Origin: Oceanibaculum nanhaiense
GTDB lineage: Bacteria > Pseudomonadota > Alphaproteobacteria > Oceanibaculales > Oceanibaculaceae
Assembly (NCBI RefSeq): GCF_002148795.1
Contig: NZ_MPOB01000003.1
Location: forward strand, 1-64,000
Length of the DNA stretch: 64,000 nucleotides
Reading direction: 5' to 3'
The translations under genes were made by a program, and so were the position numbers. The notes under the pieces are model-generated. The model searched no databases. It had not been told where the DNA came from and saw nothing but the letters and a program-made list of their open reading frames with translations. Shown here in pieces: positions 267 to 8,032 of this stretch (its first letter is position 1; the number at the start of each line of letters is the position of its first letter).

Positions 267-383
267 CGCGAGGCAAGGCGCACTTGATAGCGAAAGCTTC
301 CGCACGGTTCAAGCGATTTCGTCGGGCTTTTCCGATTGATCGCCGGATTTATCCCTCTGGCTCTGCTGGCCTGCGCCAGCACC

Positions 384-1433
384 CTACTTCGCTGCCGAAC
401 GCGCGGCGTGGGCGGCGGCGTGCTCCACGAAGTTGCGGGCCGTCGCCTCCGCCGTGTTGAAGGCGGTCACCAGCCGGATGCTGGGCGTCTCGGCACTGCC
501 CCAGCGATAGAAGGCGAAGCCGTCGGCCAGCAGCCCGTCGATGACCGCCGCCGGCAGGCGCGCGAAGATCTCGTTGCCCTCGACCGGATGGTCCAGCTCC
601 ACCCCCGGCACGCCGGCCAGCCCCTCGGCGATCAGGGCGGCCATGCGGTTGGCGTGGCGCGCGTTCTTCAGCCACAGATCGCCCTCCAGATAGGCGTCGA
701 GCTGGGAAGAGAGGAAACGCATCTTGGAGAACAGATGCCCGCCGCGCTTGCGCCGGAAGGCGAAGTCGCGGGCGAGGTCCCTGTCGAAGAACACCACGGC
801 CTCGGCGGCCAGCGCGCCATTCTTGGTGGCGCCGAAACTCAGCACATCGACACCTGCCTTCCAGGTGAGTTCCGCCGGAGAGCAGTTCTGCGCCACCAGC
901 GCATTGGCGAAGCGCGACCCGTCCATGTGCAGCTTCAGGCCGTATTTCCGGCTGATTTCGCCGATGGCAGCCACCTCGTCCGGGCTGTAACGCGTGCCGG
1001 CCTCGGTCAGGTTGGTGAGGCTGACGCAGGCCGGCTGCACATGATGCACCGTACCGATGCCGGCATTGCCGAGCCGGCGGTCGAGTTCTGCCGCGTCAAT
1101 CCGGCCGTGCGGCCCATCGACATGCACCAGCTTGGCTCCCCCCGAGAAGAATTCCGGGGCGCCGCACTCATCCTCCTCGATATGCGCATTGGGGTGGCAA
1201 TAGATCGCCCCCCAGGACGGAGTCAGGCAGGAGATCGCCAGCGCGTTCGCTGCCGTACCGGTGGCGACCGGGAAGGCCGTGACCTCTTTCTCGAAGATCG
1301 CCGACAGTTTCTCCTGCACCTTCGCGGTCAGCGGGTCGTTGCCATAGGAAGTGACGCTGCCTTCGGCCGCGCCGGTCAGTGCCGCCAGGATTTCCGGCGA
1401 GGCGCCCGTCACATTGTCGCTGCTGAAATTCAT
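384..1433 (-). CDS. Low-specificity L-threonine aldolase family protein
   Basis: 349 aa, the usual length for this PLP-dependent family, which splits threonine or allo-threonine into glycine and acetaldehyde in the cytosol. The start matches the family N-terminus (FSSDN followed by a GxxP-type loop). The probable PLP-binding lysine is near residue 204 in SFGATKNG, and the cofactor-contacting aspartate is near 171 in LHMDGSRF. The dense SYGND region near residue 30 is also typical. The gene stands in tandem downstream of a small membrane-protein gene on the same strand. Some relatives act on beta-hydroxy amino acids other than threonine, so the exact substrate is inferred. Confidence 0.9.
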   Translation of the reverse strand: MNFSSDNVTGASPEILAALTGAAEGSVTSYGNDPLTAKVQEKLSAIFEKEVTAFPVATGTAANALAISCLTPSWGAIYCHPNAHIEEDECGAPEFFSGGAKLVHVDGPHGRIDAAELDRRLGNAGIGTVHHVQPACVSLTNLTEAGTRYSPDEVAAIGEISRKYGLKLHMDGSRFANALVAQNCSPAELTWKAGVDVLSFGATKNGALAAEAVVFFDRDLARDFAFRRKRGGHLFSKMRFLSSQLDAYLEGDLWLKNARHANRMAALIAEGLAGVPGVELDHPVEGNEIFARLPAAVIDGLLADGFAFYRWGSAETPSIRLVTAFNTAEATARNFVEHAAAHAARSAAK

Positions 1434-1449
1434 CGGTCCCTACCCTTAT

Positions 1450-1487
1450 TGCGCCGGCCCTCACTGCGCCGGCCCTCACTGCGCCGG
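1450..1487. repeat. 15-bp tandem duplication carrying a stop codon
   Basis: The unit TGCGCCGGCCCTCAC occurs at 1450-1464 and 1465-1479, followed by 8 more matching bases. The second copy contains the stop codon of the small membrane-protein gene (1476-1478, minus strand). The next unit repeats an in-frame TGA at 1461-1463, and an in-frame TAA follows at 1446-1448. The coding text therefore reads PAQ-stop two or three times in succession. See the matching sites at 45311, 42771 and 51783. Confidence 0.95.
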
Positions 1488-1805
1488 TTCGAGCAGGAAG
1501 GAGCCAAGCACGCGGCCGCCGGCCATGTCGAGCACCATCAGCACATCCCTGCCGCCCTCGCCCGCCATGTGCAGGACCAGCCGGTTCCCGGCCGGCACGA
1601 TCTGCTGCAGCCGCGCGCCCGATGGCAGCGGCACCGTCGCCGGATCGAAACTGGCCAGCGGTGCCCCCGGCACAAGTGGCATCGCGATGGCAGGCTCCGG
1701 CTCGGACGCACCGCCCAGGCGCTTCGCGATGGTCACGCCGATCACCGCCACTCCGACGACAATCATGACACCCATCACCACGACGGCTATGTTCAAGGCT
1801 TTCAT
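1476..1805 (-). CDS. Small membrane-anchored protein (DUF6476-like)
   Basis: 109 aa, starting at the ATG at 1805 because the N-terminal MKALN segment leads straight into one hydrophobic helix (about residues 5-27). The rest is a small soluble domain with repeated hydrophobic/glycine strands, including a stretch with MLVLDMAGG near the C-terminus. It resembles short single-helix proteins annotated as DUF6476 in alphaproteobacteria; the name is from memory and the function is unknown. The gene is divergent from rluD, with 70 bp between the starts. Its last codons and stop lie in a tandem repeat. Confidence 0.65.
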   Translation of the reverse strand: MKALNIAVVVMGVMIVVGVAVIGVTIAKRLGGASEPEPAIAMPLVPGAPLASFDPATVPLPSGARLQQIVPAGNRLVLHMAGEGGRDVLMVLDMAGGRVLGSFLLEPAQ

Positions 1806-1875
1806 CGGCTTGGCCCCAATCTTCTCTCGGTCAGGCTTGCGAGACTCCGACGACCGGGATAGGCATTCGCCCCGC

Positions 1876-2901
1876 ATGACGCAACCGAAATCCGATCTCC
1901 CGGCCGTTTCCCCCGACCGCCGTACCGTCGCCGTCGAAACGGGCGAAGCCGGCGAACGGCTGGACCGGTTCCTGGCCGCAAGGCTGGGCGATCTGTCGCG
2001 CAGCCGGGTGAAGGCGCTGATCGAGCAGGGCATGGTTGCTGAGTCAGAGGGACCAGCCACCGATCCGTCGCAGAAGGTGAAGCCCGGCCAGTGCTTCACC
2101 GTGACGCTGCCGCCGCCGGAAGCGGCCACGCCCGGCGCGCAGGATATCCCGCTTACCGTGGTCTATGAGGATGATGATCTGATCGTCATCGACAAGCCCG
2201 CCGGCATGGTGGTTCACCCTGCCCCCGGCAACCCTGATTCGACACTGGTGAACGCGCTGCTTGGGCATTGCGGCGATACGCTAAGCGGCATTGGCGGGGT
2301 GAAGCGCCCTGGTATCGTGCACCGCATCGACAAGGATACCAGCGGCCTGCTGGTGGCCGCCAAGAACGATCTCGCCCATGCCTCGCTGACCGGGCAATTC
2401 GCCGCTCATTCCATCGACCGCGCCTATCTGGCGCTGGTCTGGGGCGTGCCGATGCCTCCCGCCGGCGAGATTGCCGGCAATATCGGACGCAGCAACCGCG
2501 ACCGCAAGAAGATGGCCGTGGTCGGCACCAGCGGGAAGCACGCGCTGACGCGCTACCGCACGCTGGGACGATATGGGGCGCTGGTCAGCCTGGTCGAATG
2601 CCGGCTGGAAACCGGCCGCACTCACCAGATCCGCGTCCATATGGCATCCATTGGCCACCCGCTGGTCGGCGACGCCCCCTATGGCGGCCGGCGTAATCGC
2701 AGCCCGGCCAATAAGAACACGGGCAGTAACGATCCCGTGAAGGCTGCGCTGTCAGGCTTCACGCGCCAGGCCCTGCATGCGCGCGAACTCGGGTTCCAGC
2801 ATCCGCGGACCGGAAAAAGAATGTTGTTTCAGAGTGCCTTACCAGCGGATATGGCGGAAATACTCGCGCTGCTCGGCCTCTCCCTCCCGGCTGGAAATTA
2901 A
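1876..2901 (+). CDS. rluD: RluA-family 23S rRNA pseudouridine synthase
   Basis: 341 aa from the ATG at 1876. An N-terminal S4 RNA-binding domain (about 25-75) precedes the pseudouridine synthase domain. The catalytic aspartate is near residue 152 in the signature HRIDKDTSGLLV, and the TGRTHQIRVH motif follows further on. RluD makes the pseudouridines of helix 69 in 23S rRNA in E. coli; RluA-family members differ in targets, so the exact sites are inferred. The gene lies immediately upstream of rpoH on the same strand, an arrangement common in alphaproteobacteria. The open frame extends upstream of 1876, but the S4 domain makes the longer form unlikely. Confidence 0.93.
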   Translation: MTQPKSDLPAVSPDRRTVAVETGEAGERLDRFLAARLGDLSRSRVKALIEQGMVAESEGPATDPSQKVKPGQCFTVTLPPPEAATPGAQDIPLTVVYEDDDLIVIDKPAGMVVHPAPGNPDSTLVNALLGHCGDTLSGIGGVKRPGIVHRIDKDTSGLLVAAKNDLAHASLTGQFAAHSIDRAYLALVWGVPMPPAGEIAGNIGRSNRDRKKMAVVGTSGKHALTRYRTLGRYGALVSLVECRLETGRTHQIRVHMASIGHPLVGDAPYGGRRNRSPANKNTGSNDPVKAALSGFTRQALHARELGFQHPRTGKRMLFQSALPADMAEILALLGLSLPAGN

Positions 2902-3019
2902 TTGTTTCCCCCGGCCACATTTATGCCATCGGCCATATGGTATATTTGGAAGCAATACCGATATCCCTAGGCCCGGTCGATACACCGGATCGGGGATCTT
3001 CTTGGAGGGAGTTTAAACA

Positions 3020-3990: not shown

Positions 3991-4602
3991 TCAGCTCTTG
4001 GCCTGCTCGCCGTCGGGTTCCCCCTCCTCCGGCTTGGCAAGCGCGGCGGGCTTGTCGCCCGCCGGCTCGGCGCTGGCGCTGCGGGTAATGCTGTCGCCCC
4101 ATTCCGACACCAGATCCTTCTGGTATTCACGCAGCTTCTGGATTCGCCGGTCGAGCTGGAAGCGCAGATAGGCGGCAACGACATGTGGCGCCGCATAATA
4201 GATGATCCAGCCGACGGACGCGGCGGCATACATCACCATCCAGGAGACCGGATCGCCGACGATCCGCCAGGCCATCGCGAAGCTGTGCTCCTGCGTCCAC
4301 AATTGCAGCATGAAGGGCAGGACACCGCAGAAATTCATGCAGCCAACCGAGAAGGCGGCATATTTCTCGCGCCGCCCATCGACAATATAGGCGACCAGCG
4401 TCGGCATCATCCCGACCGCCGCGACGACCATCGTCGGCAATACCGCCAGCCCCAGCCCCAGAACCACGACCAGCATCAGCAGCTTCCAGCCGCCCCGGCT
4501 TTGCTGCTTGTTCTTGCCCCCTGGGCCGCCGGGCCGCCGACCGCCACCGCCACCGCCGGGTGGCGCCTTGGCTTTCGCCTTCGTCTTCGCCTTGTCGCTC
4601 AT
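3991..4602 (-). CDS. Membrane protein with a Lys/Ala/Gly/Pro-rich N-terminus
   Basis: 203 aa from the ATG at 4602. Residues 1-36 are basic and low-complexity, with a KAKTKAKAK run and a poly-glycine stretch. About three or four hydrophobic segments follow, near 38-58, 62-75, 82-103 and 119-147, then a charged tail of about 55 residues. No enzyme motif is visible and I do not recognise a named family. It lies 28 bp downstream of the kinase-like gene on the same strand, so the two are probably co-transcribed and may form one membrane complex. That pairing is inference from spacing. Confidence 0.75.
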   Translation of the reverse strand: MSDKAKTKAKAKAPPGGGGGGRRPGGPGGKNKQQSRGGWKLLMLVVVLGLGLAVLPTMVVAAVGMMPTLVAYIVDGRREKYAAFSVGCMNFCGVLPFMLQLWTQEHSFAMAWRIVGDPVSWMVMYAAASVGWIIYYAAPHVVAAYLRFQLDRRIQKLREYQKDLVSEWGDSITRSASAEPAGDKPAALAKPEEGEPDGEQAKS

Positions 4603-4630: not shown

Positions 4631-6628
4631 TCATACCAGATAAAAGGCCAGAATCGCGAAAGACGCCAGGCCGCCAATGACGCCACTGGCCACAGCCGAC
4701 ACCTGCTCGCCCAGCACTCTGGCTGTATATTCCATATAATTCGCCTCGTTTTGCAGAGTCTTCACCTGCATGTCGGCCCGCCCGAAGCTCGCAATCGCCG
4801 CCCGGTACCCCTGTTCGTCCTTGGTGCGGGCCTGCGTATCCTCCACCAGGACCATCATCTTGCCAATGATGCCCGATTTCGCCGCCACCTCCAACTCGCT
4901 CAACATCTGCTTGCGGCGTTTCAAATTGTGAAACTGGCTCAGCACCGGGCGAAGATGGATTTCCAGCCAGCGGCACAGGTTCGGCAAGGCGCCGTTGCTC
5001 GACAAGCCCTGCACGAACGCCATCAGCCGGACCTGCGCCACGATGCGCGCAAAACCGTCCGAATCGTCGGCCAACGGCCGCACCCAGCGGTCCGTCACCT
5101 GCCGGCAGCGCGCGGCGATAAAGGCCGCCGTATGCCGGTCCAGCGGCTCGTTGGAGGGCAGCCTTTCAGAGACCGCCGCCTCCATCGCCGGCAGCAGATC
5201 CTCGTAATTCACGATCATCCGGCTTTCGATCAGCGGGCTGAGGCAATGAAACGAGGCGCTCAGCTCGTAAATCACCCGCTCATAACCGAAGCCCGGGCCG
5301 GTCTGCGCCATCATCGTCGCCATGCGCTCCAGCAGGCTTTGTTGCCGGGCCAGATCGCTGCGCTGGGCAGTATTCGTGGAAAACCAGGTGGACGGAACCT
5401 TCGCCGCCAGCAATTCGCCCAGCTTCTGCCGCTGCGCCTGATTGCCGGCACTGGCCGGCACCATATAGGCGATGCCGTCCGGATTGACGCTGATCCCCTT
5501 GAAGCTGATCGGCGATGACGGAAACAGCACCATGCAGGCCCGCGACAAGGCCTTGGCATCCGCCGGTTCCGGCCCGGTGCCACCGACGATGCCGTGCAGT
5601 GACTTGGCCATCTCTTCGACATGCAGGCTGCGGCGCAGCCAATTGTCGAAGGCGGGGTTGCGCACCATCTGCGCGCCGCTTTCCCAGTCCAGGGACAGCC
5701 GGAAGGCTGCCGACTGGCTGGTCACGCATTCCGCCTTGCCAATGGTGATCGCGCGGGCGGCCTTTGGCGGCAGCTTGCCGCGCAGCGTCTTGCGGTGCCG
5801 GCCGGCAAGCCAGTGTTCCAGGTCGGTAATGCCCCAGCGGTCGCGCGGATCGTCATTCAGCAGCCCGCGCAGCATTTCCACGATGGGAAGCGACAGGGTA
5901 TAGCGGCTGGCCAGCGCGGAGAACGAGCCCAGCTCCATCTTCAGATGCAGCAGGTCGTTGCCGCCCCCCTCCGCTTCGGGTTTCTTGCCCAGCAGCAGGC
6001 ACAGGATGGTGGCACCCAGCGCGTAGTAATCGTCTGTATGCTCACCATCGCCGCGGCCCAGCGGATCGGCCATGGCGCTCTCGATCGGTTCCAGAAAGTC
6101 AGGCTGGTCGGCCGCAGGCGGCGCCGAGAAGCACTCGCCCAGCACCAGCCCCCTATTGTCGCCGGAATGAAACAGGTTGGAGGGCCGGATGGCGCGGTGC
6201 GTGACGTTGCGCACCTGCAACTCCTTCAGCACCGGCAATATGCGTGGCAGTATCTGCCGCTCGATCGCCTCTTCCGGAAACGGCTTGAAGGGCGCATCGC
6301 CGCCTGGCGACAGCCGTGCGCCCGCCGGCCGCTCATAGATCAGGCACATCTGCCGATGGGCATCGCCGCGCCGGCCGGTCTGCCCGGAATCCAGCAGCGT
6401 CAGCAGGCCCGGCAGGCGGCAGTCGCGCATCTCCTCCATCGCCGACAACCGCACCGGCAGCCGGCGGTCCAGCAGCAGCCCCATCAGGGGAAGCGGCCGG
6501 TCACCCTGGCTATCGATCACCGAATAGGCTTTGGCGCGCGGTGAATCGAAGGCCGGCAGGGGATCGTCCATGACGATCTCGTACCGCCCCTTCAGCGTCA
6601 GCTTGCCGTTTGCCGCCGCCTCGGCCAT
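4631..6628 (-). CDS. Tail-anchored serine/threonine kinase-like protein, probable pseudokinase
   Basis: 665 aa. Residues about 15-275 look like a Hanks-type kinase fold. The catalytic-loop equivalent reads THRAIRPSNLF where active kinases have HRDxKxxN, so the catalytic Asp is Ala and the following Lys is Arg. The DFG position appears as LGECF. No glycine-rich loop or VAIK lysine is evident, while the late-lobe pattern DDYYALGATILCLLLG is kept. Residues about 280-640 are an unrecognised helical region, and the protein ends in one hydrophobic helix of about 20 residues, suggesting a C-terminal membrane anchor with the kinase-like part in the cytoplasm. It precedes a small membrane-protein gene. 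Loss of activity is inferred from the motifs; some kinases tolerate unusual catalytic residues. Confidence 0.75.
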   Translation of the reverse strand: MAEAAANGKLTLKGRYEIVMDDPLPAFDSPRAKAYSVIDSQGDRPLPLMGLLLDRRLPVRLSAMEEMRDCRLPGLLTLLDSGQTGRRGDAHRQMCLIYERPAGARLSPGGDAPFKPFPEEAIERQILPRILPVLKELQVRNVTHRAIRPSNLFHSGDNRGLVLGECFSAPPAADQPDFLEPIESAMADPLGRGDGEHTDDYYALGATILCLLLGKKPEAEGGGNDLLHLKMELGSFSALASRYTLSLPIVEMLRGLLNDDPRDRWGITDLEHWLAGRHRKTLRGKLPPKAARAITIGKAECVTSQSAAFRLSLDWESGAQMVRNPAFDNWLRRSLHVEEMAKSLHGIVGGTGPEPADAKALSRACMVLFPSSPISFKGISVNPDGIAYMVPASAGNQAQRQKLGELLAAKVPSTWFSTNTAQRSDLARQQSLLERMATMMAQTGPGFGYERVIYELSASFHCLSPLIESRMIVNYEDLLPAMEAAVSERLPSNEPLDRHTAAFIAARCRQVTDRWVRPLADDSDGFARIVAQVRLMAFVQGLSSNGALPNLCRWLEIHLRPVLSQFHNLKRRKQMLSELEVAAKSGIIGKMMVLVEDTQARTKDEQGYRAAIASFGRADMQVKTLQNEANYMEYTARVLGEQVSAVASGVIGGLASFAILAFYLV

Positions 6629-6742: not shown

Positions 6743-8032
6743 TTAATCTGCAAAGGGGTCTTTCATCAGAATGGTGTCATCGCGATCCGGGCTGGTGGAC
6801 AGCAGCGCCACCGGCGCCTCGATCAGCTCTTCAATACGGCGGATATATTTGATCGCGGTAGCCGGCAGATCCTTGTAGCTGCGGGCGCCTTGGGTGCTGT
6901 CCTGCCAGCCTTCGAAGGTCTCGTAGATCGGCTCGACCTTGGCCTGCAATTCCTTGCCGGCCGGAAAGTGATCATATTCCTTGCCATCATGGCGATAGCC
7001 GATGCAGACCTTGATCTCATCCAGCCCATCCAGCACGTCCAGCTTGGTCAGCGCGATGCCGTCGATGCCGCCGACCTTCACCGCCTGACGCACCATCACC
7101 GCGTCGAACCAGCCGCAGCGCCGCTTGCGCCCGGTGACCGTGCCGAATTCGCGGCCACGCTCGCCCAGGCGCTGGCCGATCTCGTTCTCCTGCTCGGTCG
7201 GGAACGGACCGGAACCGACGCGCGTCGTGTAGGCCTTGGTGATGCCCAGCACATAGCCGACTTGGCTCGGCCCGATACCCGCACCGCTGGACGCCTGCCC
7301 CGCCACCGTGTTGGAGGAGGTGACATAGGGATAGGTGCCATGATCGATATCCAGCATGGTGCCCTGCGCGCCTTCCAGCAGCACCCGCTTGCTCTGCTTG
7401 CGGGCTTCCTCCAGATGGCGCCAGACGCTGTGCGCATAGGGCAGCAGCTTCGGCGCCACCTCCTGCAAGGCGGCCAGCAGGGCGGCGGCGTCGATCTCCT
7501 CCACGCCAAGGCCACGCAGGAAAGCATTGTGGTGGGCGACCAGGTCATCGACCTTCTCGGCCAGCGTCTCCGGCTCGGCCAGATCGCAGACGCGGATGGC
7601 GCGGCGGCCGACCTTGTCCTCGTAGGCCGGGCCGATGCCGCGTCCGGTGGTGCCGATCTTGCGCACGCCCTTGGCCTCTTCGCGCGCCTGGTCGATGCGC
7701 TGGTGCAGCGGCAGGATCAGCGCCGCATTGTCGGCGACCAGCAGGGTTTCGGGGGTGATGTTCAGCCCCTGGGCGCGCACCGTCTCGATCTCGCGCAGCA
7801 ATGCCCAGGGATCGACCACCACGCCATTGCCGATGATTGACAGCTTGCCGCGCACCACGCCCGACGGCAGCAGGCTGAGCTTGTAGGTCTGGCTGCCGCA
7901 GACAATGGTATGGCCGGCATTGTGGCCGCCCTGGAAGCGCACCACCACATCGGCGCGCTCGGAGAGCCAATCGACAATCTTGCCCTTACCTTCATCGCCC
8001 CACTGGGCGCCGATGACCGTAACGTTGGACAT
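6743..8032 (-). CDS. purA: Adenylosuccinate synthetase
   Basis: 429 aa, the usual length. The P-loop-like [10 protein letters not shown] lies near residues 9-18, followed by [10 protein letters not shown] near 35-45 and the conserved GSGPFPTE segment in the C-terminal half. PurA joins IMP and aspartate using GTP to make adenylosuccinate, the first committed step to AMP, in the cytosol. It lies 54 bp downstream of hisZ on the same strand, a pairing common in alphaproteobacteria, and the two are probably one transcript. Confidence 0.98.

Follow-up and report, generated by a model that had tools for sequence, protein, structure and literature searches.

Introduction

Bacterial pseudokinases are barely characterised, and few of the seven families described so far (PMC12599244) have a known role. 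A gene in the 64,000-nucleotide stretch of Oceanibaculum nanhaiense DNA analysed here (the window; contig NZ_MPOB01000003.1) raises the question of what a kinase-like protein with degraded catalytic motifs and a C-terminal membrane helix might do. A first-pass annotation, made from the letters of the window, took the product, here termed PSK, for a bacterial signalling scaffold rather than an enzyme. Public records label the family "serine/threonine protein kinase", and literature searches found no paper on it. The features of the locus are collected in Table 1; scans for promoters and terminators around the gene gave no signal above chance level.

Table 1. Features of the PSK locus, with positions in the window
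Feature	Position	Strand	Basis or remark
Tail-anchored pseudokinase (PSK), 665 aa, ATG start	4631..6628	(-)	Family in 131/385 class genomes; model pLDDT 89.9
Kinase-like domain (predicted), aa 10-280	5789..6601	(-)	Profile match to MK2, E 2e-14; Foldseek probability 1.00 to PknB and WNK
Beta-3 strand, aa 48-54, LMGLLLD; VAIK Lys replaced by aliphatic residue, Cys or Ala	6467..6487	(-)	Column counts at aa 53 (n = 133)
Catalytic loop HRAIRPSN, aa 144-151; Asp replaced by Ala, Asn kept	6176..6199	(-)	Column counts in 133 sequences
GEC, aa 164-166; E165 in DFG Asp column	6131..6139	(-)	Profile alignment to MK2; column counts
Two-unit helical repeat domain, aa 289-420; beta hairpin and helices, conserved Trp	5369..5764	(-)	Found as well in DLHK proteins and in a single active kinase
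All-helical conserved region, aa 421-597; GxGxERxxY, C462 and PxDRHxAAF motifs	4838..5368	(-)	Y454 in 133/133, C462 in 128/133 PSK sequences
Long C-terminal helix, aa 598-664, ending in membrane anchor, aa 646-664	4637..4837	(-)	Model and hydropathy
MEM, 203-aa polytopic membrane protein, C-terminal LxxxWG motif	3991..4602	(-)	Obligate neighbour of PSK
purA, upstream neighbour; conserved order purA-PSK-MEM	6743..8032	(-)	Adjoins PSK in 21/32 context loci

Fold and domain architecture

The single PSK sequence scores 22.7 bits against Pfam Pkinase, under the cut-off of 31.7, and its best PDB chain reaches E 0.0015; the family profile, by comparison with PDB, matches MK2 (Table 1). The AlphaFold model (pTM 0.84) is placed by Foldseek among PknB/WNK kinases, including WNK1 and WNK3, with TM-scores of up to 0.73 on the target. 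Profile, model and structural search together predict that PSK has the bilobal fold of the protein kinase superfamily, in agreement with the kinase-like domain recognised at first pass. Matches of full-length PSK to kinase entries in Pfam, NCBIfam, PADLOC and PHROGs were all partial or sub-threshold, and the identities LanL, MAD6 and PD-T4-6 were rejected as kinase-domain cross-matches.

Between the kinase domain and the membrane helix lie about 365 residues that match no Pfam family, much as the roughly 360-residue unrecognised region of the first-pass annotation had implied. Modelled alone, the C-terminal region (380 aa) gives a pLDDT of 91. Foldseek comparison of this model with PDB returned no match better than E 1.0, with TM-scores under 0.25; these matches were rejected as chance, as were designed armadillo repeats, which covered about 25 residues in a PDB profile search. 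The C-terminal membrane helix of the window protein, also claimed earlier, has a hydropathy of 1.97, and such a helix is present in 38 of the 41 PSK sequences checked.

Catalytic residues across the family

Residue columns were counted in 133 PSK family sequences. The catalytic loop of the window protein had been read as HRAIRPSN in place of HRDxKxxN, and the family bears this out: the HRD Asp column (aa 146) holds A in 82, S in 22, G in 12, N in 6 and D in 2, leaving Asp absent from 131 of 133. The two exceptions, from Skermanella and Arenibaculum (L074 and L075, reading HGDIRPTN and HGDVRPTN), are both without DFG and the beta-3 Lys, and neither is an orthologue with intact motifs. Among the 133 sequences the catalytic loop contains no alternative conserved Asp. 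The glycine-rich loop and VAIK Lys, likewise noted as missing, are absent at family level too, with no Gly loop in the sequences read and Lys in 0/133 at aa 53 (C 72, A 15, L 14). Intact HRD and DFG were found together in 0/133 sequences, and the full set of an active Ser/Thr kinase (beta-3 Lys, HRD Asp and DFG Asp) likewise in 0/133. As far as sequence can tell, these counts support a loss of canonical catalysis that is ancestral to the family.

The motif reported as "GEC" at the DFG site requires a shift of register. Loss of DFG in the window protein stands, but the profile alignment pairs the DFG Asp of MK2 with E165, not G164, and the Phe with C166, so the PSK motif is x-E-C, one position off the GEC reading. 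Column 165 contains D in 64, E in 59, P in 6 and Q in 4 sequences, and is therefore acidic in 123/133 (92%); Asn151 is kept in 129/133 (97%). Because E165 occupies the DFG Asp position, the metal-site pair of Asn151 and an acidic residue at 165 is largely kept, and on this basis PSK may bind nucleotide or metal. The HRD His is retained in 123/133 sequences, R148 in 117/133 and R60 in 127/133, while Q175 and the alpha-F Asp D200 are invariant (133/133).

These retained residues bear on whether PSK could be a repurposed enzyme or nucleotide sensor, whose pocket would bind nucleotide or metal through N151, D/E165, R148 and R60 and then switch conformation or catalyse another transfer, as in SelO and SidJ. 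The conservation of all four positions is consistent with such a role, and SelO, SidJ and the arginine-lined pocket of DLHK pseudokinases offer precedents (PMC12599244). However, SidJ and SelO retain the Lys column (PMC12599244), whereas the beta-3 Lys is gone from all 133 PSK sequences and the Gly loop is missing from those read; we consider this reading unlikely. It is highly improbable that PSK is still a protein kinase with a non-canonical arrangement, such as the moved Lys of WNK: WNK1 and WNK3 are among its best structural matches and the public records name it a kinase, but the HRD Asp is missing in nearly all members, no other loop Asp is conserved and the Lys is absent. The database entries that call PSK a protein kinase thus appear to be mislabelled.

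Distribution, selection and descent

Of 96 genomes close to the window, 36 contain a PSK relative; in a class-wide sample of 385 Alphaproteobacteria genomes the number is 131, which counts strong matches and leaves aside 20 weaker ones (E above 1e-10) as other kinases, uninspected. Named members include Azospirillum, Magnetospirillum, Skermanella, Telmatospirillum and Terasakiella, taken from the best 80 of 298 matches to a nine-sequence subset profile and hence biased to near relatives. Comparison with the nearest congener gives a dN/dS of 0.10 for the whole gene, 0.14 for the N-lobe and 0.12 for the C-lobe, compared with 0.05 for purA and 0.16 for MEM. PSK is under purifying selection, and its low dN/dS together with its spread across many families of the class argues that it is more than a chance product. 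Genome G050, which spans 1.4 Mb and has a completeness rating of 100%, carries the gene together with that of MEM; this retention suggests that the function is a core one of the cell envelope or membrane rather than a niche one.

The repeat domain offers a route to the origin of the family. In a phylum-wide sample, strong matches to the repeat-domain profile all lay within Alphaproteobacteria. The profile also matched two other proteins with kinase-like domains (HRDLRPST and GFG) that run into DUF4011; since these features fit the published description of DLHK (PMC12599244), both are of DLHK type. A third repeat-bearing protein, L176 (genome G392, positions 364-3003, 879 aa), has intact VILK, HRDIKPGN and DFG motifs, several Trp-rich helical repeat units and hydrophobic C-terminal segments, although the equation of its repeat with the same homologous domain draws on a weak score (E 0.002) and a pattern judged by eye. 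Scored against the PSK kinase profile, L176 is the top active kinase at E 8e-27, ahead of the next one at 7e-16. As an intact kinase that scores best and carries the repeats, it makes descent of PSK from an active repeat-bearing kinase most likely. No further active relatives were found in its class, where L176 was the sole full-length match in 48 genomes.

In the kinase-domain tree all pseudokinase entries fall in one branch (support 100), which points to a single origin of the catalytic loss. The DLHK entry and L176 lie nearest to this branch (98), in a tree whose branches are long and whose inner order is unsure.

A membrane protein that accompanies PSK

Most context loci share the gene order serC-serA-hisZ-purA-PSK-MEM, with rpoH convergent. 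In the window MEM starts 28 bases downstream of PSK. The protein has three or four membrane helices, and its conserved LxxxWG motif follows a basic stretch. MEM adjoins PSK in 28/32 context loci, the other four being the second PSK of the window's own genus. Among the 385 genomes, 131 carry both genes, none PSK only, two MEM only and 252 neither; MEM is thus found in 2 of 254 genomes without PSK, both of them incomplete, with two MEM matches of E above 1e-5 not counted. The Fisher value for this co-occurrence (1e-102) ignores shared ancestry and is not readable as a probability. MEM lies directly downstream of 128 of 138 PSK copies, with a median of 38 bases between matches; five genomes hold the two genes apart yet retain both (two of the five were inspected), and PSK-MEM pairs duplicate together. 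These cases, and the correlated evolution described next, say more about the pairing than the co-occurrence count does.

The two proteins also evolve in a correlated way. Their distance matrices correlate at 0.83-0.86, and a partial correlation of 0.69-0.78 remains after removal of purA, rpoH or hisZ distances, a level reached in 0/1000 permutations but possibly inflated by these slow-evolving controls. Co-occurrence and distance correlation both partly reflect shared ancestry.

Single copies do not always follow this pattern. The window's own genome has a second PSK (L031, 6164-8209 on contig 5 of G000) with no MEM beside it, and two genomes (G017 and G149) have extra MEM copies without an adjacent PSK (L142-L145), one of which has a hybrid histidine kinase gene, encoding an Hpt domain, 75 bases away; the pairing is therefore not strict per copy. 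The second PSK borders type VI secretion genes in G000 (DotU, IcmF, ImpA) and in one congener, but not in two other congeners. A tandem PSK-MEM-PSK-MEM array in G136 (L153, 2582-10892) is followed, in the same orientation, by flhA and a MotA/ExbB gene, and one PSK copy adjoins a Wzi-like gene. As these contexts disagree, none of the flagellar, type VI and capsule roles was adopted as the function of PSK. An Azospirillum plasmid carries a further PSK-MEM pair (NZ_CP029830.1, 736280-738325), annotated as serine/threonine protein kinase and hypothetical protein.

The same observations could mean that PSK mainly serves to assemble or stabilise MEM, which would then be the functional unit, as a channel, transporter or lipid-handling protein. 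Strict dependence at genome level and the MEM copies without a neighbouring PSK would fit. PSK is, however, over three times larger than MEM and has strongly conserved motifs far from the membrane, and a PSK without adjacent MEM exists. We regard this arrangement as rather improbable.

Discussion

PSK is probably a tail-anchored pseudokinase that acts non-catalytically in an obligate inner-membrane complex with MEM. Its C-terminal anchor would keep the dead kinase fold on the cytoplasmic side of the inner membrane, and PSK would work by binding rather than phosphotransfer. Together, the kinase-like lobe and the helical repeats may form a cytosolic platform, with the long C-terminal helix and anchor placing PSK against MEM, the product of the gene just downstream. 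That the complex would be physical and obligate is suggested by the presence of MEM in all 131 genomes that carry PSK.

Loss of canonical catalysis and membrane anchoring, as first proposed, both hold. A signalling scaffold is a guess, and no signalling partner was found; the most economical account is a role in protein binding without catalysis. What counts against the simplest form of this model is the conservation of the Asn and the acidic residue of the metal site, as a protein acting purely as a scaffold could do without them. A tentative and rather doubtful extension would make PSK and MEM the core of an undescribed alphaproteobacterial inner-membrane complex, where the dead kinase fold, its metal site retained, serves as a ligand-responsive switch coupled to MEM by the coiled helix.

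PSK is ancient, is maintained by selection and occurs in a third of the Alphaproteobacteria genomes sampled, among them complete genomes of some 1.4 Mb. With MEM as a partner gene, the loose idea of a signalling scaffold becomes a two-protein complex that can be tested, and Azospirillum and Magnetospirillum are tractable hosts that carry PSK.

Among described bacterial pseudokinases, PSK fits none of the three families compared in full, GLW, CP1 and DLHK, and differs from each in stated features; the other four described families are ActPs1, ActPs2, ActPs3 and DYD. PSK resembles GLW in having a transmembrane region C-terminal to the kinase domain, but GLW does not replace HRD, whose His is mostly kept; relative to both GLW and ActPs3, PSK retains this His and the metal-site Asn and acidic residue. 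Its distribution differs from that of ActPs3, an actinobacterial family with a deleted activation loop; the published members of ActPs3 and DYD come mainly from other phyla (PMC12599244). CP1 is linked to COG3899 and lacks a transmembrane region, whereas PSK has a membrane helix and no Pfam ATPase domain. DLHK proteins (for example P. aeruginosa Q9I0B5) share a kinase-like domain ending in RGLLxDxxxRWxxxxVxxWLxG and followed by the same repeat domain, but they keep the HRD Asp, have no membrane helix and continue into DUF4011/helicase. L176 resembles PSK in its type of repeat and in having hydrophobic segments towards the C-terminus, but its catalytic motifs are intact, its repeats are several more in number and it comes from a single genome of another class.

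The closest parallel in working outline is EssB/YukC, a membrane pseudokinase that scaffolds the T7SSb of Firmicutes (PMC12599244). Like PSK it is membrane-anchored, and with all its catalytic motifs degraded it provides a precedent for non-catalytic scaffolding. PSK is not a member of that family. It differs in sequence and architecture, with a helical repeat and coil before the terminal anchor, and it is distributed in Alphaproteobacteria, where none of the examined context loci contains a T7SS locus and most have the serC-to-rpoH order described above.
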